From positions 1,240,001-1,304,000 of the forward strand of contig OZ017756.1 in the NCBI GenBank assembly GCA_963969365.1: a DNA stretch of 64,000 bases, in the 5' to 3' direction. Made by a program: the position numbers and the translations under genes. This document shows positions 5,689-58,640 of this stretch, piece after piece (the first letter of the stretch is position 1; each line of letters starts with the position of its first letter). The notes under the pieces are model-generated. The model made no database searches, was not told where the DNA came from, and saw nothing but the letters and a program-made list of their open reading frames with translations. The stretch is from Asterochloris sp. CNOR1. Lineage: Eukaryota > Chlorophyta > Trebouxiophyceae > Trebouxiales > Trebouxiaceae.

Positions 5689-8600
5689 ATGAGCGACAAG
5701 TACAAGCCAGATCGCCCCGTCTTCTGCGGTGAGCCTCGCCGCTGGCGCCTGCAGACATCGAGCTGCCATGCCGGCCTCCAGCTGCGCAGCCGGCCCAGAA
5801 CTGCAGGAATTCATGCTGTTGAAGCTCATGTTGAGCACACTGCAGGCAACTTTGAGTATGATGCCAACCCGCGGGATGTGGAGCGCCTGTTTGACAGGTT
5901 TGGCCCAATTGAGCGCCTGGACATGAAGACGGGTGAGCATGCCTCACTGATCACAAGTAGGGTGGCGCCTACAGGGCTGTGCTCAATGTGTTTGCCCCCT
6001 GCGCTGTCATGACGTGGGGTCTTCAATGATCATTGGCCTCGTCCATGCTCCTGCTCGCTGCTTTTGTGGCTTTTGGTTGATTATCTGCTCTGGCAGCTGA
6101 CCGCGCGTGCCTGCTGTGCGGCAGATTGGCCACAAGTCCTCCGGGGGACCTCCACTTTCACCCCCTGCCCTGGGCCTACTTCTTCCCATTTCGCTCCCTG
6201 ACCATCGCACCTCTGCTCCACTTCGCTCACCACCTTCCTTCACCGCGCGGCCATGCCCAACCAGAGCTGCACATTGCACAGGGGGCCTCCACTCACACAT
6301 CAGGGCTTCACTCACACACAACAAGCATTCAAAAACCTCTCGCTTCCTCGCTCTTCGTCACTGGCAACCTCACGCCACCACCAACCTCCTTCCCTTCACA
6401 CACGGGCAACCCCAGGCGGAACAGCCTGGTACCACCTCCAACCACTGACTTCCTGTCTAGCTTTCCGGCAGGAGGGAGCGCTGGCAATGAGCCACACAGA
6501 GCCAGCACCACTGCAATCCACCACACCCATGCCAATGTCATATCCTCTGCTCTGCCTCAGGCTTCGCCTTCGTCTTCATGAAGGATAGGCGCGACGGTGA
6601 TGACGCAATCAGGGCGCTGGATGGGTGAGGGGCTTTCTGAACAATGTGCTGGTGCAGCAGCTATGTGGGCCTGCTGTTGAAGCAAGCTGGCATTGCTGCC
6701 TGACAAATGACATTGCAACCAGGGCTCTTGACGGGTGAGGGCCTGTAATATGAAGTGCACCTCTGCTTACACACAGCCTTGAAGCACGCTCTGCTTGCCG
6801 CGCTCAGTCTAAGCAAGTTGCATCAGCATTCACCCTGCTGAGCACATTGGCTCTTGTGCCAGGGCCATGCATGTTGGGTTGATACACCGCCTTTACAGAG
6901 AACCATACTGGGCTCGGGGTCTGCCAGCATATCTGCAAGTTGTCCTGCAATGTGAGACTGCTGGCATGAAGGCAGTGATGCAGGCTCAAGTGATACGTCT
7001 GATGGATGACCTGCTCCATGTCAAAAGTCTCATCACTCCAGGCGCCAGCAATGGCTTACCTGTTGGCCTGCGTGCCTGCAGCCAGGAGTTCGGCGTGCGC
7101 AGGCGCCGACTGAGGGTGGAGTGGGCCAAGGTAAGATTCAACCGGCTTTCTCATTGTGGTTCTTAGAGTGCTGCCTCCTGCTGGCATATGATTGTTTGTT
7201 GGGCACGCTCTGCCTGCAGATTGACGCTGACAGGCGGCGCGTAGCATGGTCAGCAGCTGGTGTGATCACGACTTTGTCGAGCCCCTCCTGCAGGCCCCAG
7301 TGCAAGTGGCTATGGAAAGTGGGCACTCTTTCAGCTTTGGAGCTGGTCTGCCAGCAGGCCCAAACAATCCTATGCAGCCCTGTAGCTGTGCAGACAGGCC
7401 TGGACCATCTTCTGCACCCCTGTGCAGACAGGCCCAGATGTTCTCCCCACTCACCTCAGCTCAACCTACTGACCCACCCTGCAGGGGGACGGCGAGGTGA
7501 AAAAGCGCGAGGATGTGCGTCGCAAGGTCACCGCAGCCAACGAGACACTGTTTGTGGTCAACTTTGACCCCGACCAGTGCCGCGAACGCGACCTGGAGCG
7601 CCACTTTGGGGAGTACGGGCGCCTGCGCCGTGTGCAGGTGTGGCTCGCCTTGGCTTTGTGCCTGTTGGGGGGGGCACGTGTTGCACTTTGGGGAGTGCGG
7701 GCACCTGCGTCGTGTGGGGTGATCTGCCATGCAAGCCACTCTTGGGAGTATGGGTGCCTGCGCAGCGTGCAGGTGCGGCCTTCTTTTGGTGCTTGTGCGC
7801 ATGCTTCGCGCCTGAGCTGTGTGCAGCATGGCAGCTAGCTTTAGTCTCAAGGAACTCATCTTACTCCTGGGACCAGGGCAATTTTGTGTGCCTTGGACGC
7901 TGCCTTACTTGGTCTGTAGCCCTGCACATGTGGGGCCAGCCAGAGCTGAGCCTGATCTTCTTCCCACAGCATGGCGCGTTCTGGGTGCTTGTGCAGCTGA
8001 GTACGGGCTGGTGTGCATGCAGATCAAGAGGAACTATGGCTTTGTGCAATATGAGAAAGTGGAGGACGCCACCGAGGCGTTGCGGGCCTGCAACCACAGC
8101 CGCCTCATGGGTGAGTGAAGTCTGGCCACTTGCATGTGGGACTGGGTGGAGGATCATCTAATCTGTTGTCCAACTTGCTTCCACCTCTTTCATGGGTGCA
8201 CGACTTGCACTGCCTTGCAGCATCATCTAGCCGCCTGGGGGTGCTCCCATTTCGGCCCCCTGCCCTGCTTTGGAGAGTCTATGTCAGCACATGGGCCTGC
8301 TGATGTCAGCAAGTGGTCCTGCTGGAGACCTCAGGATCACACAAGGACGGGGCACCTGGATGTCTGTGGTGGGTGCCACAGCCTGCAGTGGCATAGAGCC
8401 AGCACAGCCTGGCAGGCACCTGCTTGCCTGTCCACAGTAGACAACAGTCTCTGCTGCTGCCCATCAAGCTTGCCCCTGTTTGCCGTACAGCATGCCACCA
8501 TCACGGTCACATGTGATGAGCAGGAAGCCTCTGACACCATATTGCCCAGGACTCCTCTTCATGCAATATGCCCCGTCAACTCTGCTCACGCTGCCTGGCC

Positions 8601-10660
8601 GCATCATCACAGTGAAGTGCGCTGGGGGCATCTGACTCTGACAGCGGCTGCAAGAGCGGCTTCATTGGCATTGCTTTAGCGAAAAACAGCTCATCAGCCC
8701 AAGATCTGCCTGTAGGCCGCACCATCACAGTGGAGTATGTTGCACGGGAGGCAGATGGACGCCCTCTGGAGGATGAGCTGCGGCGCCCTGCTCCCAGGCG
8801 CAGCCCCACGCCGCCGCCCCGCCGCCGTAGGTGGGCTGTGCAAGGAGTGGCCTGAGTGCTCCCTTTACAGTAGCGTGCAGCATGCCTCTGTGCAGCCCTA
8901 CAAGACTGCCTTGCCGCCTTAAGTGAGCACAGAGACTTACCTGCTTGAGGCTGCAGTTGGCCTGGGTGCAGCCCCCCACCCCGCTGCCCCACCATTGCAG
9001 GTAAGCTTGAAGGTCATGTCATCAGCAGCTTGGGAGTCGATTCTGGGGCTGTGCCATGCTGCCGCGACGATGCGGCTCACAAGAAGGATACCTGCACTGC
9101 TGCGCCCTTCCAAGCAGCCAGCAGGCGATTTTGACTCGGATGTGCAATGCACAGCCTCATCTACATAAGAGGCCACACCAAGCTGGGCAGCTTTGCCGCT
9201 CGGCTCGCACCTTGCTTGTGCTCAGAAGGCTATCCGTAGCAGCCCCGGTGGTCAGGGTCTCCCAGCTGATTCGCTCTTCCCTGGACTGCAGATCCCCCTC
9301 GTATGACCGCAATGACAGGAGGCGCGAAAGGAGGGCATCCCCCAGGCAAGACAAGCCTCTGCACTTGCGCATGCAAAGCACCCGCCTGATGCACCAGCTT
9401 GGCGGAGCTGCATGCATAGCCCGTGCCAAATGCCTGCGCCAGACGAGCCCCTGGTTAACCTTATCAGATAGCATGTGGCCCGGGGCGCACCAAGCCAGGC
9501 CTTCAGGCCAAGCCATCTCAAGCCGCACAACCCCTGTCCGGTGTGAGCCATGCCAAGCCAAGCCTCCAAGATGCAAGGCCGCCCTGCAGCTCCTGTGCTT
9601 GGAAGCCCACAGAGAGCATTGCACTTTCAGGCGTCGCAGGGACAGCTTCAGCCCCGATGACAGGGACAGGCGGCGGCGGTCCCGCAGCCCTGAGGAGCGG
9701 GACAGGCGCAGCCGGGGTGAGGGCCGGGAGCTCAGCCCTGCCTCTGCAGGTAGCCCTGAGCGGCGCAGGAGCCCCACGCCAGCGAACAGGGATGAGCGCA
9801 TGGACGAGAGGTGATTCACTCACTGCTGGCTGTTGGTCTGGTCGGGGGCAAAGGGGATTTGTGCAGCCAGGGACAAGCAGCTGGATGAGAGGTGAGCCTG
9901 CCCCTCTGCGCTTTGGGCCTTTGTTGGGGATGGGAGTTGTGTGTGCAGGGCAGCTCTGGGAGAGGTGGAACGAGCACACGGACGAGAGGTAAGCTCGTGG
10001 CCGGAGTGGCCACCTCTTGGCCTTTGTCAGAATGTGTGCTTGAGCCAGCAGTCAGTGAGCAGCAGGCGGATGAGAGATGTGCAGGCTGCCCTGTTTCGTG
10101 GACTGGCTTGTGCCAGAAATGCCTGCTGTGTGCACAAATCCCATACTGGCGGACAGACACCAGCAGGTGAGTGAGAGATGAGCAGGCAGCCCAGCACGCA
10201 CATCTGGTTGCTGGAAGGCTTGCTTTGTGGAGCGTTGCTGTGTGCTTAAGCAGACAGGAAGGTGAGGTTGCCCTGCCTATCCATGTTGCAGCCCTGCGCT
10301 GAGGTACATAATTTGCTTGACCGCAAGAAGATAAAGCAAGAACCACCATAGATGCTGGACAGCCCTGGCATGTGAAACAAGCATTGGCATATGCGGGGTG
10401 GCATTAGCTGCTGGGGGCAGGGAACCCTGCCCAGGGAAGCTCCACAGCTCTTCAACATATTGCTGTCTTCTGTGCAATCTGGCTGTTTTGTGTGCAGTCT
10501 GGCACTGCAGCTGACAGTAAGTGGCATCTGCTGCTTGGGACGAAGTGCCTGACACATGTCTTGTACTGCCTTCAGGGATCCCAGCCCCCGTCAGAACAGC
10601 CATAGCCCTTCCACTGAGCCCATGCAGGGCACTGAGAATGGCCGCGAGGCTTCTGTATAG
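5689..10660 (+). CDS. RS31/RS40-type SR splicing factor (two RRMs + RS domain)
   Basis: Ten exons join in phase to about 304 residues: 5689-5728, 5846-5932, 6561-6624, 7082-7130, 7485-7637, 8023-8110, 8716-8830, 9292-9345, 9631-9810, 10576-10660. RRM1 runs from RPVFCGNFEYDANPRDVERL through GFAFVFMKDRRDGDDAIRAL to RRRRLRVEWAK. RRM2 holds TLFVVNFDPDQCRERDLERH, then IKRNYGFVQYEKVEDATEAL and RTITVEYVAREADGRPLED. These match the plant-specific RS subfamily, including the VEWAK and VNFDP signatures. The C-terminus is RS/RD-rich (DRRRRSRSPEERDRRSRG) and ends REASV. SR proteins bind exonic enhancers and recruit U1 snRNP and U2AF in the nucleus; in plants RS genes regulate their own splicing. The ninth exon also reads into a TGA at 9812, so intron retention would give a shorter protein. 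Intron 8 uses a GC donor after 9345. Most introns carry copies of adjacent exon edges, which is odd in a gene whose product reads splice sites. Confidence 0.9.
6717..6742 (+). repeat. Echo of SR-gene exon 3 end with donor
   Basis: CAGGGCTCTTGACGGGTGAG repeats the end of exon 3 (CAGGGCGCTGGATGGGTGAG, about 6609-6629) about 110 bp downstream in the intron, keeping a GTGAGG donor. Confidence 0.7.
7684..7775 (+). repeat. Two echoes of SR-gene exon 5 end
   Basis: Exon 5 ends CACTTTGGGGAGTACGGGCG... GTGTGCAG then GTG (7600-7640). Copy 1 (7684-7722) begins CACTTTGGGGAGTGCGGGCA; copy 2 (7738-7775) contains GGGAGTATGGGTGCCTGCGC and again ends GTGCAGGTG. Both copies sit wholly within intron 5. Confidence 0.85.
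8486..8635 (+). repeat. Two echoes of SR-gene exon 7 start
   Basis: Exon 7 opens GCCGCACCATCACAGTGGAG (8716). The intron upstream carries GCATGCCACCATCACGGTCA (from about 8490) and GGCCGCATCATCACAGTGAA (from about 8598). The first follows an ACAG that could act as acceptor. Confidence 0.75.
9868..10185 (+). repeat. Array of echoes of SR-gene exon 9 donor
   Basis: Exon 9 ends GCATGGACGAGAG then GTGATT (9810). The following intron carries AGCTGGATGAGAGGTGAGCC (about 9876-9895), GCACACGGACGAGAGGTAAG (about 9974-9993), GCAGGCGGATGAGAGATGTG (about 10062-10081) and GTGAGTGAGAGATGAGCAGG (about 10167-10186). The first two have better donors than the real one. Confidence 0.85.
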
Positions 10661-10709
10661 ACAGATCGAGATGCCCAGGTCACCCTTTTGCTCTATCAAG
10701 TATGACATT

Positions 10710-10714
10710 TGTAA
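10710..10714 (+). terminator. Putative TGTAA polyadenylation signal of SR gene
   Basis: TGTAA, the usual polyadenylation signal of chlorophyte algae, lies about 50 nt after the stop at 10660. A second copy follows near 10764. The assignment rests on position only. Confidence 0.35.
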
Positions 10715-11972: not shown

Positions 11973-14900
11973 ATGGTCAGGGCACCGCTGGAAATCCTGC
12001 AGCGTGCATGTGAATCTCAGGAGCCAATTGATGCAGGTGAACATGGTGAGATCATCAGCGAGCCGTTAGCCTGTGATCATGCCAGGTTGTGCAGTCAGTT
12101 GTCTGACTGCAGAGCAGCAAGTGCTCGCCCACCTGGACAGCATCATCAAGGACCCTGTTGGTCCAACCAGCACTTCCTACAGCGCAGTACCCCTATTCTG
12201 CAGCCAGGTGACAGGCCTGCTAAGCCCCACTTGATGCTGCACAGTGGAGCTGCTGGCAGATGTGTGCCTTGGGTTCTGCCCGCTCAGCCTGGTTGGTGCC
12301 TCCTGCAGGCGAGGCCAAGGGGCGCCTTACAACACAAATTGCACAGGGAGGCAAGGCTGCGGAGCCTCGGGGTAAGCTGAGTGCTGGTGTACCGAGCCTG
12401 CAGCCTCTGCCAGCTCCTGTTCGGCCTTGCTGGGCTCCTCCGCAGTGTTGCAGCATATACGGTCCTGTGTTCTGCCCTGCACCACAGGCTGCTGGCTGCC
12501 CACAGGCGTGCATTGCTTGTCATGCAATGACAAGATGCAGCTCACCCACTGCAGACGTTTTCCCCTGTCTGCCCCGCAGCCCCGCAGCTCTACAGCCAGA
12601 TACTGGCTGATCAGCAAAAGCAGCTTTCAGCAATTGCGCTGTCCTCTCAAGTAGTGCCTCTGACATGAACGCCCTCCAATCCTCCATGTCCTTCTCTTGT
12701 CAAGCCCTGCAGCTGAGTGTCAGCTGAGGGAGCACAAGGTGCTGCCTGATGGCACAGCTCATCTATTGTAAGCACACTGCAGACTTGTTTCGCTGCCCTG
12801 CTCTGCAGCTGCACAGCCAGATGCTGCTCATCAACAGCCAGCTGGAGGAGCTCTGGTACTGCCTGCAGCGCCACGTCACCACGCCAGCAGCAGCTGCTGA
12901 GGACGAGCGCATCAACTATGATGACTTTTCTCAGGTGAACATGTTTCAGTGAGCCAACACTGATGCAGTCAGCCTGCTGCAGCTGCTGAGGATGGGCACA
13001 TCAATCAGACTTGCAGCACCTAGTCAGGCCGCAGGGACTTAACCTGCTGTACAGCGTTGCTCCTTGGATGGGTACCCATTGCTGCCCTCAGGTTTCGGTG
13101 ATGCAGCGCTTTGGAGCAGCCCAGGGGCGCAAGTGCAGGCATGACAACCTGCAGTGGCTGCAGGCCGGGGCAGAGCGCCTGGGACAGTTGGGCCCCAGGA
13201 AGAGGCGCACATGCAGGCGGCACACTACAGGTGCAGGCTGCCTGCAGAGATCTGTGCAGCTTGCTGTGTTGTCATGCAGGCCAGGGCAGAGTCCAACATG
13301 GTCTGTGGCACTGACAGACACACATTTTGCTGCCCACCAGCCAGGGCAGAAAGCCTGCTCAATTGCTTGCAGGCCAGAGCAGAGTGCCTGGAGCGCTTTG
13401 GGCCGCAGGCAGAGGAGTACACGCAGGCCGGCAGGTTTTTGCGCTTCCGCAAGGACGAGGAGGGCGCTATTTCGGTGCTGTCCTTCTTCAATTACGTCAT
13501 GCGCAGGAACGCCATGCTGCAGACGGTGAGCGTCATCTGGCATGACACACAGTAGCAGGCATCGTCTGCAAGGGCAGCATCAGGCGTGACATGCTGGGGA
13601 CCTTGAGAGCCCTCTGCGGGCGCAATGCGGCCATCCAACCAAATGCCTTGCGCTGCCACGCCGCCCGTCTGGAGGTTCCAGCAGGCCAGGTGCAGGAGTG
13701 CCATGCTGCAGAGGGAGAGCACCTCAGGCAGAGTACACACCCAGGGCGTACCCTCTGCAGCTTGGGCAGCATGCATGACACGCAAGTCTGCAGGCAGTGA
13801 GCACCCTCAGGCAGTGAAGAGGTGCATGTCAGGCACTCCCACATGCCACCAGTGTGTCAATGAACAACTCCGCTCGTCTTTGACTGCAGCTTCAAGTAGG
13901 CCACTGCCAGGGTAAACATGCTGCAGGCAATACATCCGGCCACTCCAGCAGTGCTCGACACTGATGGCCTGCTTCTCTGATGGCTGCCTGGCGCTTCCCA
14001 TGCGCAATGCACAAACACAGCTGTGCTGCAGGTGGTGGGCTCCCCCAGGCCAGGATGCCATGCTGCAGGCAACATGCAGCCTCTGGCGTTTGGCGAGGTG
14101 CATGCCATGCTGCACAGGGTGAATGCCTGGAGGGGACACTGGCCCTGCATGAACCAAGCATCCCAAACCCAACTCAGATGCTGACGGCCCCCTGTGCTTT
14201 ACAGCGCCTCCATCTCAGCTGCTTGAGGTTGGGCGGCCAGCCAAGCCATGCATCAAGCTGACCCTTATTGCAGGCAGCCTGCTAACTCAAGAGTGTGCAC
14301 TGCACCCATGGACGCCATAGACACTAAGCTGACCCCGTGTACTGTGCTGTGCACTGTATTTCACAGGACGGTCAGGGCAGCCAGCCCACCAATGCAGCAA
14401 GCTGTACTACTGTAGACCACCCGCCGCCTTGGGAGTGTGCTCTGCACATGTGACATGAAGCACACCTCATGCACTGCACCGTGCAGCGTGTTCACCTAAG
14501 CTGCTTTGACGAGGAGGGGTTGGGCAGCCTGACCGAGACCCAGCTGGAGGGCTACATCAGCCAGCTGGTGCCCGAGCTGCCAGCGCTGCAGGGCCTGACA
14601 TCAGCCATCAGCCTGGCAGAGTACTGCAGGATTGCCAGCAGGAAGTTCATGTTCTTCCATGCCCGGCGCCACAGGTGCTGCTGCAGTGAGCACTGCTGCA
14701 ATGTGGTGTGGTCAGTCAGCTGCCAGGCAGCCTGTGGTGCCCACAGAGCCACTGCCGCTATGCAGCGTGGTCACAAGGCTACCGGGCAGCCTGTGGTGCC
14801 TGCCTGAGCAGTGCTGTGGAGGGCATGCCAGGCACCCTGCGCAGTACTCGTGAGCACTGTGCCACACAGTGGTGTTGTGTGGCAGGCAGCCTGTGCCGAG

Positions 14901-17078
14901 TACAGAGTGCTCAGCTGCACAGCTGGACTGTCTGCAATGCAGTCTGTGCCTCACAGGGTAGAGGTGCACCAGTGCCTGGACAGCTAAGCAAGGTGATGCT
15001 TGTGGGGCCCGGCCAGCAGGCACTTGCAGCCAGGGAATACCCCGACAGCATCCAGCTCCCTGTCAGCCAGCAGCCGAACCTGATTCCACGTTCCGACACA
15101 CTGAGAGTGGAGTGCCGCCCATGCCTACAGCCGGCCCTTGCAGCACTGCAGCCGCTGGACTTTCTCCTGGAAGTGTGGCCAGGTCCCCCGTCTGGACCAG
15201 TGCAGCCCTTGTTACGCAGGGTGCAGATCAGGGACCTGCTGACGAGCCCAGTGCTGGCAGAGCTCATGGAGCTGCGCGTGCCAAGCTCTGCTCAGGATGC
15301 CAGCGGCAATGGTGCTGAGGGCTCTGGAGGGGCTGGCACTGGCCGCTCTAGTCCAAACTGGTGCGCTGCTGCTGAGGCCTGACCTTCCCCAATGCGGCTG
15401 CAGGCTCAAACAGTCGGCCAGCAGTTGTAGGCTCATGCTGGCGGCCTCACCCATTAAAATGTGCAGGAGGACACCATCTCTCTGCAGTGCATCAGGCCGT
15501 GCTGCCCTGCTGTGCACTCATGATGCTCTGCATATGTGCTGGCATGCCATGCACCCTGAAAGCTGTGCCTGTGTGCTGGCTGAGCACTGGTTGTTTGATT
15601 CACTGAGCTCAGCTGCAAGCCCTGCACAACGATGCAAGCTCAGCATTTGGGCAGTTCAGCATTGGTGGTGCTGTGCAGGTTCAGCACAGCCAACGCTGTC
15701 CGAGTGCGGGATTTGTTCACCAGCCTGGATGAGGACCGCAATGAGCACCTGAGCAAGCAGGAGTTCTTTGGGTGATTTGCTTCTACCTGCATAGAAACAT
15801 TAGCAAAGCTGTGGGACACCACCAGATTCCATCCTGCCTGTGCTCAGCACACTCTGGTCGGTTTCACGTCCCCACCATTGCAGAGGAGAGCTCCTGGATC
15901 TGGACTTTGCTGCATCAAGCGCACCAGTGCCATCCCTTCAGACCGTCTATCCTTAGTTGTGATGTTTGTGGAGCTTCCGCCTGATTCCCCCCGCCCTTCC
16001 TGCAGGTTCTGCATGGGCACCATGTCCCAGATATTCCAGGACCGGGTGTTTGAGGAGCATGTGGCCTTCAGCCGGGCTGACAGGAGACGCAACGTGCGCA
16101 ACGAGATGGACATGCCTGCCTTCCTGGACTTCCTGCTGGCCTGGGAGAACAGAGAGACACCCCAGGCCGCCAGCTACTTCTTCAAAGTGCTGGACATCAG
16201 GGGCCAGGGCTACCTGACACAGGTGGGTGGTGGCCGCTTGTTGACTGTGTGTGCTGGGCCAGCCAGAGGACCTGGGAGAGCAGGCAGTCACCCCAGGCAG
16301 CTGAGTTGTAGTCTTGAAGGGTTGCAAGCAGGGCCAAGGGGTGCCGGGCGCAGGTCAGCAATGGCTTTGGCCAGGCCTGGCTGTCAAGGTGCTGAGCATC
16401 AGGGGTACCTGACAGAGGTGAGGGGCATGTGCTCGGTGAGCAAAGTGTTGACCTGTGATGTGTGTGTCTGCATCTGCCATGGAGTGTGCTTCGGCAAGAC
16501 TTCTGCATCATTGCCCAGTAGTGCATTGATCAGTTGTTTTCCCTCCACAACCTGCAGGTCGAGATCTACATCTTCTTCAAGGCTATCTATCGAATGTGGG
16601 TGGCCTGTGGCCAGTACAGTGAGTTGGACCCCTTGGACGTCAAAGACGAGCTGTTTGACCTGGTGAAGCCCCGCGACCCTCTTCGCATCACGCTGCAAGA
16701 CCTGGTGGTGAGCGCACTCATTTTGGCAGTTGTGCCAAAGCAGCGGATCAGCGTATCTGGGCTTCAGCAGTGTGGCAAAAGTGTCAGCTCTGCCGCACGG
16801 CAGCAAGCAGGAGGGCCGGCAAAGTCCCCTGCCGGGGACTGGCTGCTCTGCTGGTGCATCCGGTTAGCCTGTAGCATATCCCAAAGGAGGGGGTCTATGG
16901 TTGAGGGGGCCCTGAAGTGCTCTACCACTGATGTGGGACAGAAGAGTCTGAACCAGAGTGCTGCTGGCTGTAGGACTGCAAAATGGCCAGCTTGTGTCAT
17001 CAGCATTTTGCAGATGTGAATGAGTTCTGGAGCTATGATTCCAGGGAGAGCCTAATGCAACAAGATCAAGAAAGTTGA
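11973..17078 (+). CDS. TON2: TONNEAU2/FASS-type PP2A regulatory subunit B''
   Basis: Exons in phase: 11973-12036, 12113-12207, 12309-12371, 12809-12934, 13373-13525, 14487-14674, 15220-15360, 15679-15771, 16006-16222, 16558-16707 and a last exon from about 17020 to the TGA at 17076-17078. Conserved blocks in order are QLEELWYCLQRHV, ERINYDDFSQ, FLRFRKDEEGAISVLSFFNY, YCRIASRKFMFF, SPVLAELMELR, WFSTANAVRVRDLFTSLDED, QIFQDRVFEEH, MDMPAFLDFLLAWEN, KVLDIRGQGYLTQ, VEIYIFFKAIYRMWVACGQY, DLVKPRDPLRITLQDL and VNEFWSYDSRESL. They follow Arabidopsis TON2 from end to end. Two EF-hand-like loops are visible, DEEGLGSLTETQ and DEDRNEHLSKQE. TON2 targets PP2A in the TTP complex that organises cortical microtubules and the preprophase band; algal homologues lack a classical band but still affect microtubule organisation. 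The short exon that should carry GCKQGGTV-like residues between 16707 and 17020 was not resolved. The start is the first ATG in phase with exon 2. Confidence 0.88.
13092..13372 (+). repeat. Multiple echoes of TON2 exon 5 start
   Basis: Exon 5 opens at 13373 as GCCAGAGCAGAGTGCCTGGA. Intron 4 carries GCCGGGGCAGAGCGCCTGGG (about 13163) extending for roughly 65 bp of similarity, then GCCAGGGCAGAGTCCAACAT (about 13281) and GCCAGGGCAGAAAGCCTGCT (about 13340). Each is next to an AG. Confidence 0.85.
16385..16430 (+). repeat. Echo of TON2 exon 9 end with donor
   Basis: The end of exon 9 (GTGCTGGACATCAGGGGCCA ... TACCTGACACAG|GTGGGT, 16188-16228) is repeated in the intron as GTGCTGAGCATCAGGGGTAC, CTGACAGAG, GTGAGG. 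Confidence 0.85.
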
Positions 17079-17289
17079 CCGCAAATGTATGTGTACCCGT
17101 TATCTCTCTGATCTCTGCGTCCTCATCCCTCAAACTTTTGCCTGGCCTCATGCAGCACTACTCAGTACCCTTATCCCTGAAAAGCAAAGCTGCCATGTTT
17201 CAGCCTGTCCACAAGCTTCTTGCAGAATTTATTTTCCTAGTTCGATGCAGCCAACTGCACTGCTTGCCTGCTTCATGCTAAGGAGCTCA

Positions 17290-17294
17290 TTTGT
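17290..17294 (+). terminator. Putative TGTAA polyadenylation signal of TON2
   Basis: TGTAA lies about 210 nt downstream of the TON2 stop, a plausible 3' UTR length in green algae. Positional evidence only. Confidence 0.3.
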
Positions 17295-41555: not shown

Positions 41556-41603
41556 GGCACGGCACATGGCAGATGCAGAGCTAGGAGGCTCCCTCCCTTC
41601 CCA

Positions 41604-44600: not shown

Positions 44601-47600
44601 CTCCTGAAGACATGGGCGTCCTCCATCCTGTACCCAATGGTGAGCAGCTGGATGAGCAGGCTGCTGCAGCCCCAGACTGGCAGTTTTCGCCCTCAGCTGC
44701 TCTGCACCATGCTGGGCTTGCACACTACCGCAGAGTGAGATGACGGGAGCGCCCTGAATGTCCTCACGTTGATGCCCACCTTGGACTGCAGGCTGCTGAT
44801 GCGCTGAGGTGGAGCAGCACATGCCCATCGCATACCTGGATGAGGAGACTCCTTCCGTCCCAGCCCAGAAAGGCCCTGTCGCCCACCCAACTTGACAAGA
44901 TCTACAGAAAGGGACCGCCGGCATCTTCAAACCTGACGATGGGCGTATCCCTGACGTCGTGCCAGCCAGTGAGTGCATGCCGCGGATGTGCTGTAGGGCA
45001 TGCGGCCCCTCCTGCTCATCTGTGTAGTGCCCAGACCAGACCTCAGAACGGCCCCTTCCCTCCTGACCAACTGCTTTGTGTGCAGCCCTGGCAACCCTTG
45101 GCCGCTACCCACCTGAAGACGGGCATGTCCTCTATCTTGTGTCCGCCAATGAGCAGCTGGGACTGCATGCTGCTGATGCGCTGCTCCAGGCGGCGCTTCT
45201 CCTCCTTCTCTATCATGAACTCGCGGCTGCGCTGCTCCAGGGCGGTGATGGCTGCCAGCTTGTCTGCCTCTGCACGGCGTTTTTGCTCCTCCACCTGCAG
45301 GCAGCAGGGGGGGGTGGCAGTCATGAGGCAGCCAGGCAAGCAGCCACTAAGCTCAAGCTGCTGCTCGTCCTCTACCTGTGCACAGTCCGCCTCGAGTGTT
45401 CAACAGTTAGCACAAAGGGAAGACGGCCAACACAAGACATGAAGGCTGCCAGCTTGTCCACCTGAGGCACCACAGCTGCCTGGCACTCTAACAAGCAGTT
45501 GGAGCACTTGCTTGCTCGGGCAGAAAATACCTTGAGAAGGTGCCGCTTGTCCACCAGCTCCCGTTGCCTCTGCTGCAGCTCAGCTCGCAGGCGCCGCAGC
45601 TCACGCTCATACTTGCGCAGCAGGGTGCGTTGGTCCACATCCTCATTTACACGCGCCAGGTTGCGGATGGACTTGGCGCGGTTGGCAAACTTGAGGGTGC
45701 TCAGCGACTCTGCAGGGGGCGCAGTGGGGTGTCTGTAGGGGTTGAAGCACAGCGGTTCACACAAGTCGCTATCACCAGACACATAAGTGCTCAGTGGCTC
45801 CCACTGGAGGCTCTGTTGTTTGCATTGAGAGCTGCTGGCCAGCGCATAGGGCTGTTGAAGGCCGCGCTGCCACTGGTTGGTGCTGGTCTGGCGGGGTGCA
45901 CAGACCCCTGGCAAGCCCCTTGGAGGCGCTGCCGTGCTGGCTCTGCATGCCTCAGACCAGCATGTACCACTGCCAGTCCACCCTTCAACTGCAACTGCAT
46001 CATCTGACCATGCTGGACGCTGGTGTTCTTGCTGCTTGCCGAAGCTGCACACTGGCAGACCACGCCTTCTCAACGGCTGCAAAAGCTGCCCCAGCACTTG
46101 TGAAAGACAGCCTGGTGCCAAGGGTTAAGCCGCAGCAGGCCAGACATGCGGACATCTGTGTCCCAAGCACTGCTATGTGCCCAGCTGGCCCCTACTATAC
46201 CGTCGTGCGGGCTCACCAGAGTAGGCCTCCAGCGCAGGGGAGATCATGGCCAGCATGGTGGTTTTACAGTTTCCACCCAAGCTGTCCTCCAGGATGCGGG
46301 TCAGCTTGCTGTCCCTGCAGCCAGGGCAAGCAACAGACCCCTGAAATTGGCACACGTTATCAGCCACCAGAACCAGGTGCAGAGATGCACATGGATGTGG
46401 GGCTGCACCATCGAGCAGTAGCACTCCAGCGCCAGCCTGACACAGCAGTGCAGGTCAGCTGGTGCTAAGGCGGTGTACCGTCCCTGAACCCTACACCCTT
46501 GACGGGAAACGCCCACCTGTAGGGGATATGTGAGCGGGTGCCTTTGGTGTCAGTCAGGGCTGCAATGACGTTGCCCAGTGCGCTCAGGGACTGATTGATC
46601 TTCTTGCTCTCCTCCAGACGCTTGCCTGTAGGCACGAGACCCTGATGGGACAGAATTGTGGCAAGCCCAGCATGCTGCCAGCCGGGACCTGCAAACAGGG
46701 GGCCTGCGCAACACAGGATGCTGGGCAGTCTAGGCGCTGCCGAGAGGCACTTCCAACCCCATAAGACCTGCATCTACCGCCTCTCTGCATGATCTTGTGG
46801 CCTGTGGTCCTCTGCCCACCTGTGGCCCCTGTGATGTGGACGCGCTCACTGCCGGCCAGGTCCACCAGGTTGAGCTTGCCCACCTTGACGCTCTGGCGCA
46901 CGCCGCCCAGGGGGTCCATGGAGGGGTGCCGCGCTTTGCCCATGCCTGCAGCAGGTTGGGCCTGTTGTTGCGCAGCGGCTGTGGTCAGCAAATCATAATC
47001 GAGGCGCAGCGTGATCACTTATCATGCCTGCAGCAGGCAGCGCACTGGCTTGATGTTGAGAGGCCCACAGCCTGGAGATCGAGTTGCATGCACCATGCAG
47101 CATTGGCCACTTGTGGCAACAAAGCACACAGCCCATGGCCTGCAGCCTGGGGCAGGCTCCCTCTCACGTGGGACCAGCTCTACGCAGCATCTACAGCCAA
47201 AGCCCTGCCTGGAGTTAGCCCTCTGAACTGCTCCATCTCCTGGTCCTCTGCTGCCGGGGTGTCCTCAGCAAACACGGTGGACTTCTCCACAATGATGATG
47301 AACACAGCGTGGCTGCGGCTGGAGGCCTCGTTCAGCTTGGTGGCGCCAGTGGCTCTCTGGGCTGCTCCACGCTCCATGAGGCCATACACCTGCATGCACA
47401 ACCAAGCCTGCACCTGCCAGGTGTGCCCACAAGCTACCCCAGCTTGACATGCGCTCACCAGCAAGTGGATTCAACAATTTGACCAGGTGAGCCTACGCCA
47501 TACCCATCCACCTGAGCTGGCTGCCTGACCCACTTGGCCAGACTGCAACACAGAAGCTGTGCACGCTCATTATTACTAAATTTCAGCCCACACCTGCAGG

Positions 47601-50600
47601 GACATGCACCACCCACTCAGACACCCCATGCAGCTCTTCCTCATGAAGCATTCATGTTCCAGCAACCCTCACTTCCCTGAGGCAGCGCACCACCCACTAT
47701 CATGCTGCACCAAGCCCACGTAATTGTTGCTAGTCTGTAAGTCGCAGTCGATTTCACCTCTGCAGGCGAGCGCACCACCCACTCCGACAGGCCATCCACA
47801 TACACGCCGCGTTTGCGGTCTTCCCGAATCACCAGATTCTGCCGGTCGGGCTTCAGGAGGTCGCTGATGACCTGCCCGGACACCAGGGACCACTGTCAGT
47901 TCTTTGCAGGCTGCAGGGCAAGCTGCCAGCAGCCCTGTTGCCCCTGTTCAGGGGCAGCACAGGTCTGCAGCTTGCCATACCACACGTGGTAACAGCCTCA
48001 ACCCTGCAGAGCAACCTGATGTGGCAGCTCAGCTGACTTGGGACAGATGTCTGGCTTGCCCTGACCAGCACACAATAGGCCCTCAGGCTGCTGCCGCACA
48101 ACATCATGGCAGGTATGCTGGCCAGCTCCAGACAGCTGGCACCGTCAGCACCATGCGGGTCTAGCGGCTTTTGCAGTGACCCTGCTGGATATATCTCCAT
48201 ATTGGCATTGTGCAGGCATCCAGCTGCAGCCAACGGGCTGCTGATGTGCGGGCCCTTCTCTTTGCAATCGAGGCACCAGACCGTGCGCATGAGGATCCTG
48301 CAGGTGCCCAGCACCACGTGCTACGCCTCAAGCATGTCTCAGCCAGCCTTGAGGACGTCTCTAACTGCCTGCCCACCAGCAGTGAACCAGCCTCACCTCG
48401 TTGTAGATCTGGAGGTAGGACGCGCGCACAAGGAACTTGCTCTGCGCGGCCTGGCGATCGCTCTCAATGTACTGAAACACGTCCTCGATGGCGCGGGGGA
48501 TGATACCCCGTGTGGGGCCCTCGTGCCCGCCCTCCATCGTGTAGGTCTTGCCAGTGCCTGCGGGGGCAGCAGTGGGGTTGGGATTCATGCTTTGGGGCAC
48601 ACACAAAGGCAGAACTGCTGCGCGTGCTGCCGTGGTGCTGGTGAGGCAGGCATGCAGGGGGCTGCCACTGGCAGGCAGCGTGGGGCTGCAGGTCTGGCAC
48701 AGCAGCTGGAGGCATGCAGGCACGATTTCCATGCAGGTTCTGACACACACAGCTGCACCTAGCATGCAGGTCAGGCCCCACCGGTCTGGCCATATGCGAT
48801 GATGGCCGCGTTGTAGCCCTGCAGCATCATCGAGTGCCTGTGAGGTGACAGCATTAAGCTAGCACAGACAGCAGATACACTGTAGCACTCTCTGCACCAT
48901 CAAGCTCAAGCCGGTCAAGTGGCGAGTCAGGCGGTCGGTCAAGCTCCCAGCCAGGCAGCAAGTGGGCCGTGCAAGCCCAGGACAAGGCCCCCAGCCTCCT
49001 CTCAGCCAGGCCGGCAGCTGAGCAGACCTGAAGTGCATTGTGAACAGCTCCCCGCGCTGTCTGCTGATACACCTCTGCCTGCAGTGCCTCGGCTGTGTAC
49101 ACGTGGTCAAAGGTGAAGCGGTAGGTGGAAAAGACCTGCAGGGTGTGAGATCATTGCTTAAATGCCCAGCAGGACTGCGCCTGTGTATGCTGCACAGACA
49201 CTGGCATGTACATAGGTGCATTCAGCACACCGGGGGCAAAGCTCCCGCATGATGTGCTGTGCTCCCACTGCTTCCAGCATTGTCTGCTGAGCTGCATGTT
49301 TGCCCACCTTGTGTGGACAGGCAGGGGGTACCATGCTTGCGTATGCGCTGATTCTGCTGCACGCAGCTGAGCGGGAGATACTTGCCAGCCCATTCTCTGT
49401 GTTGGTGCCACCCCCTGACTGCAGGGATTGCAGGTTCTCTGACAGGATGATGGTCCGGTGGCTGGGGTCCGCCATGACGGTGTTCTCGAAGGGGCGCATG
49501 CCCTGCAGCTCCCGGGGGAGGGGTGGCCGCACGCGAATGACCACCTGCACGGATGTGGGTGGGCTGTCAGCAGGAGAGTTGAGGCAAGCCCTGGTGTGGT
49601 GCATGCCGCGTATGCCTGCAGGGCCGGAGGGCGCAGCACACCAACCACCTGCAGCAGTAAGGGTGAGAGCTGGGGAGAGCCAAGCAGTGGGGGGCTACTG
49701 CACGCCCTGACATGCTATGCTACTGCAGGATGGGCAGTGACGTGTTGATGCAGGGGGTTGCTTCTGGAGTCCCAAGACCTGCACAGTGGGCGGTCATACC
49801 CCACCTACACCAGTGGGGCTGAGCTGTCAGGGTTAGGGCACTGAGACAGCAACACAATCAAAAATGATGCAAGTGCTGCAGCTCGCGAGCTGCAGATGCA
49901 GTCGCACATTGACTTGTTACGCTGAAAGGTGCGGCTGAACTCACAAGTCTCAATGTTGGTGGACATTGGCCGCACAACCTGTGATGGTGATGCAGGGCAA
50001 CACCATCACTCGGAACAGACGGGGCGAGCTGTCAGGCAAAGTCCAGCTTTGGCAGCTTAAAGCTGGTGCAGATGCATGCCCTGCAATGCCCGCTGCTGTG
50101 GCTGACCATGTGCAGCAGCTGGGCTGGCCGTCAGGGGAGGACAACACCCCTCGGTCCCTCCTGCTGAGGTGGCACTCAAGAGAGGCGTCGGTGCCCTCCA
50201 ACCTTAGTGCCAAAGGACAGGGCACCAGCAGCAGGCTATCAAGTGCAGCCGTGGCAGACTGGGCCCCTCCAGTCCCTACTGTCCATGCCCGCGCTGCTCA
50301 GCTTGCTGCTCATCCCTGAGGGTGCCAAGCTGATGCATGTCACTGAGTTGCAGGCGCAGCCATGCAAAGGGCCTGCATGCTTGTGTTGGCACTGCAAAAG
50401 ATACTCTGCTCGCCTCCCAGCGGGCGCCTGCTCTGCGCAGACAGCTTGGGGGCACCACAGCCCATTTGGGTAAGCCAGCTGCCAGCTCCAAACCTTGAAG
50501 TTCTCGCCCTGCTCATCCAAGAGGCCATTCTCTTCCTGCTCCCTGGCTGTGGCCTCTGTCTGGGAGTACAAATCAGAAACCTGCCGAATCATTGCCTGCA

Positions 50601-53278: not shown

Positions 53279-56200
53279 CTACGCCAGGTTACACCCTGGC
53301 GCGCATGCTGGGGCACGGACCTCTTCAGCATAGCACTCCTGGACGGCATTCATGAAGGCCAGAGCATCCACGTGCTCGGGGAAGGACTTGAGGATCAGCC
53401 AGGCGCTCTGCAGGGGTGAACAGCAGAGCTTAGTGGTTCCTCTGCTGCAGTCTGCAGCAGGCTGCGCAAGCTTGCATGCAGGCAAAGGGCAGCACGCTGC
53501 AAGTCCTCAGCAACTTTGCTGCAGCTGGCTCGATGGCCACCAATGCAGGCTGCTGCTGCAGCAAGCCAGCAGTATGACATGTCGTGGCAGTGCTATTTCA
53601 ATGCGGATTGGTGACCCCCACGTGTAAGTGCCTGCAGACCCTTTAAGCGCAGACCAAGCTGCCAGGCATTCCACCTGCCACTTGAGCTGGCAAGCCTGCA
53701 AAGCCATGCTGTAGCTGCCATGACACTGCATTGCTGCATGCTGCACCTGAAACACCACTCAGACAACACACCTGCAGCGGGTTCAGCTGAAACCTGAAGA
53801 CCGCGTACAGCATCTGGACATTGAACTGCTGCTCCTCCCTCAGATTTTGTTCCAGTGCCTCCGACAGCTTGTTCAGCTTGCTGTTGTCGTCAGCAGCATT
53901 GGCAATGACCTGGTCTGAGCCCGAGTCTATCTGTGGTACGACTGTGTCGACCAGCTGGCGGCTCAGCTCGCTGCGTGTCTCAAAGATGCTACAGATCGGC
54001 AGAAAACATTGCGTCATGTTGCAGGTCAAGTGGGGTCCTCAAAGGGGCTGTCCGCAAACTGCGTGCTCAGCGCTGCAGCTCTTGGAGGATGCTGCAAGCG
54101 GCGCGGCCATGTGTCAAGGAGACGAGCCTGCTGGCGGTCTCTCTTTCGCTGCAGCTAAGGGGAAAGCAACATGCCATAACTGACATGGCCCGCGGCAATA
54201 ACAACGCCAAGAGCAGCATGCAATCCATTGCAAAAACGGGTGCCTCCCGCAGGCATCGCAGAATAATCTCCTGAGGTCAGCTGCTGACTGGGCACGGCAG
54301 GACTCACAGCTTCAGCCTGTTCAGGCATTCCATCCTCAGATTGATCAGCTGCTGCTTCTGCTGCGCGGACAGGCGGCACTCCTTGGCGGCATTGATCCAG
54401 CGATCAGGCTCCCTCCAGCTCTTGAGCGTGCCACACCTGCAGCACGCCAGGAAGAGCCATGGTGATCAGGGGGCGCATGGACACCAGAAATTGCAGAAGG
54501 AGCCGCTGAGCGAGTTCGTTGTCCTGAGACGGCAGCAGCAGTGCCCAAACACGCTTTGCCTAACTCATGCTTTGCTCGACTCATGGCAGCAGTTCAGCCG
54601 GTGCCCAACACATGTGGTGGGAGGTCAGCCATCTGCAGCTCATGCTGGAACTGCAGCTCATGCTGGAACTCCAATGGCGACGCTGCCACAGAGAACATCT
54701 CGCAGGATCCCAGACCTAAGAGTTTGTAGGCCCAATTGAGCACCCCTCTTGTGAGCGCTGCAGCAGCCCCGCTGCGTGTGCTACACCCCACTTACATATT
54801 GCAAGTGCTGCTCAGCTCACTCTCCTGCAGCAACTTGCCACAGCTGCAACACTCCCACGAGAGGTCAGCCCCTGCTGTGGCAGCACATGAATCTGTATTC
54901 ATCGCATGAGGAGCAACATGTGCATAAGGATGTCCTTTGTCCTGGGCAGCTTACTCAGCAACAGCCTACCTCGCGCCCACAAGACAGAGACTCACAGTGC
55001 ACTGAAGTGCCAATCAGCTCTTGTTTCACAACCATGCTTGCACTCAGTAGTCAGAAGCCCCACTCATGCATTGTAGGTGGAGTTGTACAATGTGGCAGCC
55101 TTCCTAGAGGGCTGAAAGCAGGCATTTGCAAAAGGAAACCTCGCGGACCATCACAGGCAGTGTGCTGGCACGTTTCCCCAGCCAGAAAGCCACTCACACA
55201 TCATAGGTGCGCGCCAGCAGCTCGTCCATCTGGATGCCCTCCATCTTGGCCACCTCGCAGCAGTTGATCACCACCTGCTCCAGCTTGCCAGCCAGCTTGC
55301 CCAGAGCCTCTCCCTCAGGGTCTGGGCCCACCTTGGGCCGCTGGTCCCACAGCTGGAGCTCCTCCAGGCACAAACGCAGCTCATCAATCTGCACCGATGG
55401 AACAACACATGCAGTGGAGTGGCTAGTGTGGGCTGAGGTGCAGCTCATGTGCTGGTCCTGGAGCTGAAGGTCATCCAGGCAGCCGCCTGGTCACCCATGC
55501 ATCCTGCACTATAGGGAGTGCACAACAGGCAATGAACTGACTGTTGGTCCTGCAGTTGCTAAGGGTCCAGGCTCAAATGCAGCTCGTCAATCTGCCTGAG
55601 ATACCCAGCCAGAAATTTGAAATGGAGTGGGCGGAATGCGTGCTACCCTGAGCAACCACTTGGCCAGGGAGATGGTTCAGGCTCTGGTGCCGCCTGAAAT
55701 GCAACAGAAACTGCTCAGGCAGAGTGCTAGTGCAGCCAGCAGTGTCAGGATACTGATTGGCAGAAAACATATTGGGTGTCAGGCTCCCAATTTTTGCAAT
55801 CGCAGAGCTGCAGAGGCAGGACTGCAGCCAGACCTGCAGCCAGGCCACCAACATTGATGAGTACCAAGTGCAGGCTCTGGTGGTTGATAGACTGCAGCAC
55901 CCAGCGCTGCACTGCACACGCAGCTATTGCTGCAGCAGGGTTTTTGCGCTGACCCCAGGGGTCAGAAGTACAAACCATGATGGCGAGCAGGCATAGTGGT
56001 CAGGCCACTACCGGTTTGACGACGAGCCAGCAGGCATTACGAAAGCTGACATGCAATCTCTTCTCACCAGGCAGCGACAAACTGCATGCATTAGCTCCAT
56101 GTGTGTCACTGTGGAACACAGGCTTATGTCAACCCCCATGACCATGCAAGCAGAACATTCAACGCTGAATCGTGTAGCAGCCATCTGAGACCGTCACCAC

Positions 56201-58640
56201 CTGCAGCCACCCTGCTGCAAGGTGCACCGTCGATGCTGATGCTTGTACAGTGCTTACCTATGCCCAAAGCAACCTCCTCACTGTTGAAACAAGGTGCTAC
56301 ATTCGCTGCCAGACCAACAGCAGCTTGCAACGATGACCACTTAGCGGAAAGCAGGCAGGCCACCTACCGACTGCAGCCACCCTGCCTCAATCTGCATCTG
56401 CTCAGCGTTCTTGCGCCCCTGCGGCCGGCCCCTGAAAACGCTTTCAGCATTGCCGGAGGCGCCCGCACTACCACTGTTCCCTCCCGCACTGCCGCCGCTG
56501 CTATCAGTGGTGACAGCAGACACCGGGCCTGCATGACGGTTGTATGAAGATTAGCCTGCTCCCGCGGGGTCAACCAGATCTTCACACAATCCTACTTATA
56601 AGTTCCAGTGGCTCTTCCACGTGTCAGACAGGGAATGCTCACATGCAGGCCTACTCCCAGGGCCTCCAAGGCTGGTTGCTGGTCCCAGGGCCTGCAGCAT
56701 CTCCAGGTACTTTGCCAGCCCATGTATGCTTTGCAGGCTGTACCTGCCCTCAGCACAGAAGTCCATTGGCAGGCCTGCACCACCGGGGTGCCTTGTATAT
56801 GCGTTACCACCCTCGCTGTGAGGCCAGTGCTGCAGCTCACCATGAGAATTCATGGGCAGCCCTGCGCCAGCCAGAGCCTTCTCCTTCAGAGACAGCTCTG
56901 CCAGCAGGGCGGCATTCTCACTCTCCAGCTGCTCATTCATCCTCTGCATGGCCTGCTTCTCTTCGACCTTGGCAGCCATCTCCTCAGCGCTCTGCTTCTG
57001 CTGCTCTACCCGCTCCTTGAGCTTGTGTCTGCAGCACACGTGTTGGCAGTGGGTGCGTACACAAGGAGACATGCACAGCTTCTGCCGCTCCACCTGTTTC
57101 GTCAGCTTGGGCCTGCGGTAGATTGAAGCACAGTGCAAGCGTCTCAGAGATGATCAGACCTTCAAAGGCTTGGGAAAGTGTGTAATGCATCTCTGCTGCT
57201 CCATGTGCTCCTTTACCTTGTATCTGCAGGAGTGAATGTCACAGGCAAGAGAACAGAGCTGGGGCTTGCATCACATGCCATGGGCGCAGATCTCCTCTTT
57301 GGCAGCTGTCTGCTCCCTCTTCAGATTGCGACTGTAGTAGGAGGGGCAACAGCAGGCGCAGTGCTGGGCCTCCAAGACCTCATATGATGGCTGGCAAAGC
57401 CTTCTGGTGTGTGAAGAGAGACTGAATCCTTACAGCCTGACTCAACACGGCACATGCAGCAGCGCAGCTATTCTGTGAGGTGTGTGTGCAGTTCAGGCCG
57501 GTTCAGTGCAGACCACTTTGCCATTGCTTGCTGGCAGGACAGTGGTGCCCAGCTTCTCCTCACATGGCAGAGCAGCAAGCGCTCCAGCATGGGTGGGTTC
57601 ATGACAGACAAAAGACTAAGCAGCAGCAGGCCAGCCTGCAGCAGGCTGGCACAGCCAGCAGTGCTCACGCCACTGCTGCATTGACAGACAAAGACACCGC
57701 ACCAACCTGTACTTCTTCTGAGCCATCTTGTTGAGTGCCTGTTGGTGGGGCGTGAGAGTACGCTTCTTGCCACCTTTGGCATTCTTGTTTGCTGTTGCGT
57801 TCCCATCAATGCCGTCTGCAGGGCAGAGAGGGTACAGAGCTGCAAGCAGGGTGCTGAGCGGGCCGTGCCCCTGCCAGAGACCCCTCGTGGAGGCACGCTT
57901 AAGCGCATGTGGGACAGTGGGGCACGCACTGAGCTGCTGGTGATGCTGCGCCCGTCTCAACACCAATGGCTGCACCAGTTTGCACAGCAATACAGCAATG
58001 CCAGGCTGCTGATCAGCAGGTCAGCAGGTCTGGACAATAACAGTCAACCTCCTACACCTGAAAAGCCCACAAGGTTGCTGAAAACCGCCACGAGAGGACA
58101 TACACAGCTTTTCGACTGTTGCTGTGAGGCTGTGAGGGTTGCCAGGAGGCAGTCATGCACACAGGGGCCATTGCGCTTAGAGTCGCCGCTGACTGGGCAG
58201 TCTGTCCCAGCAAACCATTGGCACGCAGAGCACCACGCATGTACACGCAAGGGCAAAGGCACCCTCCTGGCTGTCCTGAGCCTTACTTGCTGTGGAGGCA
58301 TGGAGATGGGTGCTGCCTGCGGAGCCTTGGCTGGATCTGCCCTCTGACCCTGTTCCACCTGCTAGTCCGTTCAGAGACTGGTCTGCAGGCACCAGGAAAG
58401 CAGCATCAGCGCAGAGGCAACGAGCAGCACATCCGTCACCTTGGGAAAGAAGTTACCTAGGGCTATACTCTCGAGGAATGGATCGACTGGCTGCCATTCC
58501 GGGTAGTCCTGGACGCCCGGAAGCTGGGGGTTTAAGGCCGGCCTGCCCTGCCCTTGGTAAGGCCGAAGCAGCTTGTCTACAAAGATGCGCTCCCCTTCAG
58601 GAACCGGCACGTCTGTGGGGTCCAGCTGCTTGCCCCTCAT
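53279..58640 (-). CDS. bZIP transcription factor with algal-type C-terminal helical region
   Basis: The start at 58640 gives MRGKQLDPTDVPVPEGERIF. A Ser/Gly-rich exon (about 58385-58285) follows, then KKRTLTPHQQALNKMAQKKY plus R (about 57815-57716). Phase links this to HKLKERVEQQKQSAEEMAAK, RMNEQLESENAALLAELSLK (57028-56841). N-K-M-A-Q-K-K-Y-R fits the bZIP N-x7-R DNA-contact signature of the AQKKYR type, followed by a heptad zipper. Later exons: SAVTTDSSGGSAGGNSG (about 56534-56377), 55388-55200 LCLEELQLWDQRP...MDELLARTYD, 54436-54308 LKSWREPDRWINAAKECRLS, 53988-53772 ETRSELSRQLVDTVVPQID, and 53407-53279 SAWLILKSFPEHVDALAFMN. The C-terminal helices, including LNPLQSAWLILKSFPEH, recur in algal bZIP proteins as I know them and may act in regulation or dimerisation. 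A nuclear DNA-binding regulator with unknown targets. The last exon may instead splice on to 52939. Confidence 0.8.
55445..55605 (-). repeat. Two echoes of a bZIP-gene exon start (55345-55395)
   Basis: The exon text (plus strand) TGGTCCCACAGCTGGAGCTC, CTCCAGGCACAAACGCAGCT recurs as TGGTCCTGGAGCTGAAGGTC (about 55451) and TGGTCCTGCAGTTGCTAAGG, TCCAGGCTCAAATGCAGCTC (about 55545-55590). The second copy also repeats GTCAATCTGC. Confidence 0.85.
57085..57231 (-). repeat. Two in-frame copies of the bZIP basic-hinge exon start
   Basis: The exon used in the main model starts at 57028 and encodes HKLKERVEQQKQ. Copies starting after AG at about 57115 (encoding PKLTKQVERQKLC) and about 57226 (encoding YKVKEHMEQQR) have the same splice phase, so each would restore Arg at the AQKKY|R junction. 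Confidence 0.8.

Follow-up and report, generated by a model that had tools for sequence, protein, structure and literature searches.

Do introns preserve degraded copies of the edges of their own exons, and by what process would such copies arise? The question is posed by a stretch of 64,000 nucleotides from the green alga Asterochloris sp. CNOR1, referred to here as the window (contig 11, positions 1240001-1304000, of an assembly of 56.4 Mb in 21 contigs). An earlier note on this DNA had described, in genes for an SR factor, TON2, SRA1, a carrier, a kinesin and a bZIP protein, intronic sequences that resemble the adjoining exon end or start together with its splice site. These exon-edge echoes are real. 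They are local, direct, specific to their own junction, free of codon constraint, and old. The pattern is statistically strong and at first resembles the product of a new process acting at junctions, but a better account is that frozen exon edges reveal an old layer of short, local duplications. Specifically, the echoes are most probably fossil remains of ordinary, short and local duplications that by chance extended across a splice junction, a reading to which a probability of roughly 0.7 is assigned.

Exon edges compared with their own introns

Gene models were produced by a purpose-written hidden Markov gene finder, trained on the window and four 50-kb stretches of other contigs (264 kb; 44 genes and 606 exons in the models). 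A further 50 kb, predicted without retraining, served as a held-out set and contributed 163 of the 1,009 tested exon edges. In total, the sample covers 314 kb in six segments, with 505 donor and 504 acceptor edges. For each edge, the 40 exonic bases nearest the junction were aligned to the adjoining intron, and up to 300 intron segments of equal length from other genes served as controls. A value of p<0.0045 means that no control segment scored as high, with a chance expectation of about 0.3%. Exons shorter than 40 bases and introns with fewer than 60 usable bases were left out, while two doubtful predicted TON2 exons (14032-14097 and 13280-13300) were retained in the counts. Tests with 220-base targets are blind to lags above about 260, the search for exon-intron pairs reached about 360, and the reverse-complement, opposite-intron and exon-middle controls used targets of up to 400 bases. 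Exact-word lag counts, which gave an excess of local direct repeats driven in part by a few arrays, were replaced by alignment tests. A BLAST self-search, which misses lags below 100, was not used for counts.

At p<0.01, 9.7% of the 505 donor edges and 6.7% of the 504 acceptor edges match their own adjoining intron, compared with 0.9% of 1,703 (donor) and 1.1% of 1,742 (acceptor) tests against non-adjacent introns of the same gene. Shuffles of the own intron agree with the latter control. Similarity to the own intron hence exceeds that to other introns, the comparison on which the earlier note had staked its claim, and its view that the echoes are neither transposons nor introners is borne out by matches to other introns staying at chance. 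At p<0.0045, an echo is found for 37 of 505 donor and 26 of 504 acceptor edges over the 314 kb, with about 1.7 expected in each case. The training segments (donors 30/423, acceptors 21/423) and the held-out 50 kb (donors 7/82, acceptors 5/81) both contribute, and the pattern is seen in all six sampled segments. At the same threshold, exon middles match in 0.5% of 214 and 0% of 223 cases, and reverse complements in 0.5-0.7% of 423. None of the 1,692 tests in four reverse-complement sets reaches z>5.

Chance, CTGCAG-rich composition or gene-finder error could supply some of the matches, as some 10 false positives are expected among the 79 at p<0.01 and two predicted TON2 exons resemble echoes. 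Same-gene other introns, shuffles, reverse complements and held-out sequence all speak against such an origin. These controls refute it for the bulk of the signal, leaving it a negligible probability.

Within the window, 21 of the 192 tested edges have an own-intron echo at p<0.01, with about 2 expected. All six named genes contribute (SR factor 5, TON2 4, SRA1 4, carrier 3, kinesin 3, bZIP 2). Among genes with at least six tested edges in all segments, 24 of 49 hold at least one echo (8.5 expected); the echoes are thus widespread, but the claim that nearly every gene carries them was too strong. More than one copy can occur at a junction, as had been proposed: with the best echo masked, a second one is significant at p<0.01 in 11 of 79 cases, where about 1 is expected.

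The direction of the echoes is likewise as first described. Donor ends match the downstream intron and acceptor ends the upstream intron, while the opposite introns reach p<0.0045 in 0.9% and 1.4% of 423 cases, slightly above the 0.3% expected. The opposite ends of introns also bear on the idea that tandem duplication of exonic AGGT segments, a known mechanism according to the consulted part of PMC2891723, gave rise to the introns in the first place. At p<0.01, the upstream exon end is found at the 3' end of the intron in 0.3% of 392 cases, and the downstream exon start at the 5' end in 1.0%. The model was rejected on the absence of such copies; old introns could have lost the trace, and the idea keeps only a very slight probability.

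Probable duplications across splice junctions

Among 20,685 query windows, 313 have a local direct match with a score of at least 120, compared with 1 far match and 7 in reverse complement. The median lag is 124 bp for donors and 116 for acceptors (220-base targets), and 104 of the 130 exon-intron pairs have a lag of 60-219 bp (search reach about 360). Multiples of three account for 30 of 45 exon-exon lags and for 47 of 130 exon-intron lags. Such a preference within exons, absent between exon and intron, is expected of a single mutation process whose products pass through protein selection, with a possible contribution from repetitive coding sequence.

The echoes behave as dead sequence without codon constraint. 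In 95 events, their mismatches to the exon amount to 0.197, 0.190 and 0.251 at codon positions 1, 2 and 3, and to 0.268 at fourfold sites. The excess at position 3 is attributed to silent change in the exon since the event, on top of an unconstrained echo. Only 30 of 257 gaps are multiples of three, in alignments that are gap-rich and with about one eighth of the matches false. Neither codon positions nor gap lengths revealed the in-frame, constrained coding copies of a tandem exon duplication. Among strong echoes (z>5), 11 of 24 donor copies still have the GT and 8 of 14 acceptor copies the AG, near the prediction from a flanking identity of about 0.75. The decoy splice sites therefore show no sign of being kept or removed. 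That the echoes lengthen introns and leave such decoys, as the first description had it, agrees with the make-up of the copies, which comprise exon edge and splice site within the own intron.

A simple course of events would produce these features. A short direct duplication of about 50-200 bp, most likely head-to-tail, would fall across a donor or acceptor. Splicing would keep to the site adjoining the exon, leaving the protein unchanged and the second copy inside the intron. The intron would grow by one unit, and the extra copy, including its decoy splice site, would decay neutrally, whereas duplications within exons would be purged unless in frame. Exon edges would stand out since one copy is held by protein selection, which about halves the rate of divergence relative to a pair of intronic copies. 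The consistent direction of the echoes would also follow from protein selection, as the mRNA stays the same only when the copy lies on the far side of the splice site in use. Most events would be old, at about 0.25-0.3 substitutions per neutral site, and few young. Strict head-to-tail adjacency is likely but only suggested by example alignments with permissive scoring, and slippage or template switching may have been the molecular cause.

The earlier note had also proposed a local process around exon junctions, and the signal is indeed centred there. With both edge types pooled, from donor and acceptor rates, windows at z>3 rise through the exon from 4/443 (-120..-80) over 10/502 (-100..-60), 14/595 (-80..-40) and 24/646 (-60..-20) to 50/691 (-40..0) and 66/691 (-20..+20). 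On the intron side they number 16/691 (+8..+48), 22/691 (+28..+68) and 36/691 (+48..+88), the last being nearest to the target. Such a peak looks junction-targeted at first. However, random-phase duplications also produce a signal that peaks at the edge, because the exonic portion of a unit decays in one copy only and the intronic portion in both. In the simulation, short tandem duplications were placed at random phase and accumulated 0.28 substitutions per site while the exon was held constant. For units of 50-130 bp, the simulated similarity at -40, -10, 0, +10 and +20 is 0.648, 0.609, 0.512, 0.477 and 0.470 (null 0.440). The observed values are 0.659, 0.607, 0.498, 0.474 and 0.463 (54 matches, weighted means; null 0.455). 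From -40 to +20, the random-phase model is thus close to the observed profile, with small misfits. The intron side adjoining the echoes is weakly above random (mean z 0.67, n=45; 0.49, n=34).

Duplication is also present away from junctions. Intron-internal 40-mers reach p<0.0045 in 12/560 and 13/560 cases, and z>5 in 11 of 1,120, compared with 38 of 1,009 at exon edges. In simulations at a divergence (d) of 0.30, detection is 0.03 for intron-intron pairs and 0.48 for exon-intron pairs. Equal duplication density predicts an intron-internal z>5 rate of about 0.24% at d 0.30, 0.47% at d 0.25, and 1.2% at d 0.20. Since the intron-internal rate exceeds the prediction at d 0.25-0.30, no junction hotspot is needed. 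After correction for double decay, intron-internal duplications look at least as dense as those at edges, if the echoes are as old as they appear. Of the proposed process, its local, direct and repeated action at some junctions is therefore upheld, while aiming at junctions is not needed, random-phase duplications being nearly sufficient.

A process that is aimed at junctions, such as mis-repair or RNA-templated copying, would instead paste the exon edge with its splice site into the own intron. It draws support from the centring of the signal at -20..+20, from an exon-side reach shorter than in the tandem simulation, and from a similarity near null beyond about +10. Simulated pastes of 30-60 exonic and 8 intronic bases, however, give the -20..+20 window only 0.61-0.76 of the rate at -40..0, below the observed ratios of 1.08 for donors alone and 1.4 for the pooled edges, and no signal at +8..+48. 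The density of intron-internal duplications also opposes aiming, unless the echoes are younger than about 0.2. Such a process is considered unlikely.

Related strains offer a view of the age of the echoes. Open reading frames in the ENA that run from exon into intron were compared by eye, as protein letters only. In one SR-factor intron, P0012 has residues like the second echo, and P0013 and P0014 have residues like the first, while P0015 passes from the exon into sequence resembling that after the second echo, as in a single-copy state. For one TON2 intron, P0004 contains two echo-like stretches that are missing from P0003. The Astpho2 TON2 model P0001 lacks echo sequence at three donor junctions. 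As echo-like residues are common to some sister reading frames, the echoes seem to predate some of the strain splits and to have been gained or lost since. The read-through frames P0004/P0012 and P0003/P0008 suggest public contigs of related algae that were translated as if prokaryotic.

Several observations weigh against an origin in ordinary duplications, among them the dearth of young copies. Strong echoes have a median identity to the exon of 0.75, and none of the 38 reaches 0.90, whereas a constant-rate model would place 44% of detected echoes at that level. Strong local pairs of all kinds reach 0.90 in 2 of 141 cases. Tandem Repeats Finder (TRF) returned 8 rows in the window and 67 arrays in 314 kb, none of them with a period above 40 and more than 91% matches; the minisatellite signature of near-identical head-to-tail units was thus not found by TRF over the 314 kb. 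A steady process cannot give fewer young than old pairs per unit of divergence, which leaves a drop in the rate or copies that are divergent from the outset. Fourfold change in exons of about 9% (silent change 7-9%) lies below the echo decay of about 19%, and the clock is therefore not simple, although the gap may reflect codon constraint. Exon-intron lags of 70-79 bp are rarer than those of 80-89 bp (2 versus 16 of 130), which detection explains in part at most. The exon-side reach at -80 is below simulation (0.473 observed, 0.505-0.538 simulated), and the -20..+20 window is stronger relative to -40..0 than simulated (66/691 versus 50/691 at z>3). None of 90 intergenic 40-mers reaches p<0.0045, with about 2 expected at the intron rate, in a sample kept too small for a verdict by the gene finder's merging of neighbours. 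A comparison of span and lag by banded alignment did not discriminate, its scoring being so permissive that null spans came to about 250.

Ordinary duplications at one pace do not fully explain why young copies are missing. Duplication seems to have been more frequent earlier in the history of the lineage and to have slowed since. It is conceivable, if doubtful, that a wave of junction-spanning duplications passed through the lineage, perhaps by way of copying centred on splice junctions, and that it lengthened many introns before it nearly stopped. If so, exon edges would be frozen references for counting and dating that wave. Error-prone synthesis offers another way out, with copies about 20% diverged at birth and a process perhaps active today. 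Both the absence of strong echoes at 90% identity or above and the low silent change in exons favour it. Copies born diverged, however, predict a flank similarity of 0.50-0.54 at +20, where 0.463 is observed against a null of 0.455. They also leave the silent changes in exons since the events unaccounted for, and some echoes are seemingly common to sister reading frames by eye. The idea is accordingly rated as very improbable. In a further reading, selection would maintain echoes as alternative or reserve splice sites, or as bits of exon. About half of the echoes retain GT or AG, and some appear by eye to be common to sister strains. Yet GT and AG are not in excess of the flanking identity, decay is much the same at codon positions 1 and 2, the majority of gaps disrupt the frame, and the Astpho2 TON2 model does without echo sequence at three donor junctions. 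This explanation, too, has a probability of only a few per cent. Small arrays with units of 34-45 bp and 83-97% identity were also noted (L012:4141-4228, L016:8947-9009, L026:4917-4988, L026:5905-5999). They look younger than the echoes and may stem from a separate slippage process.

Intron lengthening without transposons is hard to document, since intronic sequence erases its own history while exon edges do not. Comparing exons with their own introns provides a simple count and a rough dating of junction-spanning duplications in any genome. Here, such duplications are widespread and mostly old, and no selection in either direction can be seen on their decoy sites. Should the age gap hold up, it would mark an altered mutation process. 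Echoes can also mislead gene finders, as illustrated by the two predicted TON2 exons that resemble them.

Echoes in the genes of the window

Where a z is given below, it and the identity count derive from the alignment of the 40-base exon edge. The SR-factor gene, supported by a Pfam match to RRM_1 (E 8.4e-29), lies on the forward (+) strand, as does TON2. The exon end at 7598..7637, with its donor at 7638 in the gene model, is the source of two echoes. The first, at 7684..7716, is identical in 30 of 33 positions (z 11.8, p 0.0035). The second, at 7735..7798, has a lag of 135, retains the GT and matches in 51 of 62 aligned bases. Exon end 6585-6624 is echoed at 6707..6734 (21/25, z 4.0, p 0.0034), and exon start 8716-8755 on the acceptor side at 8598..8630 (28/33, z 6.4). 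A weak echo at 8890..8921 (22/32, z 3.7, p 0.0068) belongs to the simple-sequence exon ending at 8791-8830. Exon end 9771-9810 is matched at 9864..9891 (22/28, z 3.8), and additional degenerate copies can be followed by eye until about 10175.

In TON2, the echo at 12984..13012 (25/29, z 5.5) derives from exon end 12895-12934, which agrees with the Astpho2 protein P0001. Acceptor-side echoes of exon start 13373 are recognised by eye at 13154..13372; this edge does not figure among the 21 that are significant. In the read-through frame, ARAESNM and ARAESLLN precede the exonic ARAECLERF, and similar exon-adjoining residues occur in sister reading frames. Exon end 13486-13525 is echoed at 13676..13714 (29/39, z 7.1), and exon end 16183-16222 at 16385..16417 (29/33, z 6.8), the latter with echo-like residues in P0004 but not in P0003, by eye. 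A match at 13906..13929 (20/23, z 2.7, p 0.0069) concerns the predicted exon start 14032-14071, so that one TON2 match is counted at a probably false exon: the predicted exon at 14032, absent from P0001, is probably an echo mis-called as exon. Both predicted exons that resemble echoes, 13280-13300 and 14032-14097, are absent from this protein. The TON2 model protein is 85% identical to the Astpho2 model over 91% of the query, and by eye the differences lie mainly at exons added or missed by the model. TON2 has only weak EF-hand matches in Pfam, and a more distant protein match is named protein phosphatase 2A regulatory subunit B''.

The remaining echoes lie on the reverse (-) strand. The genes called SRA1, carrier and kinesin share one merged gene model, within which coordinates were used to separate them; SRA1 and bZIP are labels taken from the earlier note. 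In SRA1, echoes of exon ends 24956-24995 and 34873-34912 are located at 24890..24930 (28/40, z 4.2) and 34756..34780 (20/25, z 3.9). Acceptor-side echoes of exon starts 26094-26133 and 34526-34565 are found at 26214..26235 (19/22, z 3.4) and 34640..34672 (27/33, z 7.9). No Pfam match was obtained for a 337-residue N-terminal piece of SRA1. Two very long exons in this gene (28187-32097) code for a stretch of about 1,240 residues in which Ala, Pro, Ser and Gln abound, and contain a degenerate 87-bp repeat at 28644-28805.

The carrier gene (Mito_carr, E 9.4e-36) has an acceptor-side echo of exon start 38312-38351 at 38401..38437 (31/37, z 10.8), together with echoes of exon ends 39204-39243 and 39815-39854 at 39150..39183 (25/34, z 3.0) and 39670..39705 (27/34, z 3.7). 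In the kinesin gene (Kinesin motor, E 3.5e-96), exon end 44206-44245 is echoed at 44114..44153, with the donor GT lost (33/39, z 10.0), exon end 45113-45152 at 44933..44972 (27/40, z 5.5), and exon end 47758-47797 at 47675..47698 (23/24, z 4.6). Both bZIP echoes are on the acceptor side, at 55566..55591 for exon start 55349-55388 (23/26, z 6.4) and at 57073..57111 for exon start 56989-57028 (29/39, z 7.3). Tctex-1 was also matched in Pfam. A search of the window against Rfam gave no match at gathering score, and a tRNA search of the window found none.

The splice consensus in the training models is CAG/GTGAGC for donors and CTGCAG/G for acceptors, with the slash at the junction. The acceptor is unusually strict in the five training segments (264 kb), with T at 92%, G at 94% and C at 97% before AG (TGCAG), and may account for the CTGCAG-rich look of the sequence. 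For the genome of Asterochloris glomerata, the consulted part of PMC6652019 gives a size of 56 Mb, a GC content of 56-62% across 98%, and a mean of 9 introns per gene.

Comparison with known systems

Short tandem duplication is a common source of small insertions in eukaryotes. The echoes share with it that they are direct and local, extend over tens to hundreds of bases and include introns. They differ in age, as a steady process should leave many young copies, which are nearly absent here.

Introners, as presented in the excerpted text of PMC9860276, likewise place repeated sequence in introns genome-wide, but their copies are spread over many genes, whereas each echo matches its own junction only. 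Intron gain by tandem duplication, described for Drosophila (PMC2891723, in part), resembles the echoes as a local duplication that carries splice signals. It differs in predicting exon copies at opposite intron ends, which are absent here. The words tandem and duplication do not occur in the excerpted text of the Asterochloris paper (PMC6652019). Genome-wide exon-edge copies in introns were not described in any of the matches listed from the open-licence literature, judged by title and start of abstract.

The closest case is the RdRp gene of potato, in which a tandem duplication spans an intron-exon boundary (Ma, Lan and Niu 2016, PMC4974935, excerpted text). The same text also mentions an 83-bp tandem duplication inside an intron. 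The basic event, a duplication over an intron-exon boundary, is therefore already in print for one potato gene. In potato as here, a direct duplication lies over a splice junction and its splice signals are inherited from the parent junction. The potato gene represents a single recent case that created a new intron and a piece of exon, whereas the window and its companion segments hold many old events, by which existing introns were lengthened and no exon was gained.

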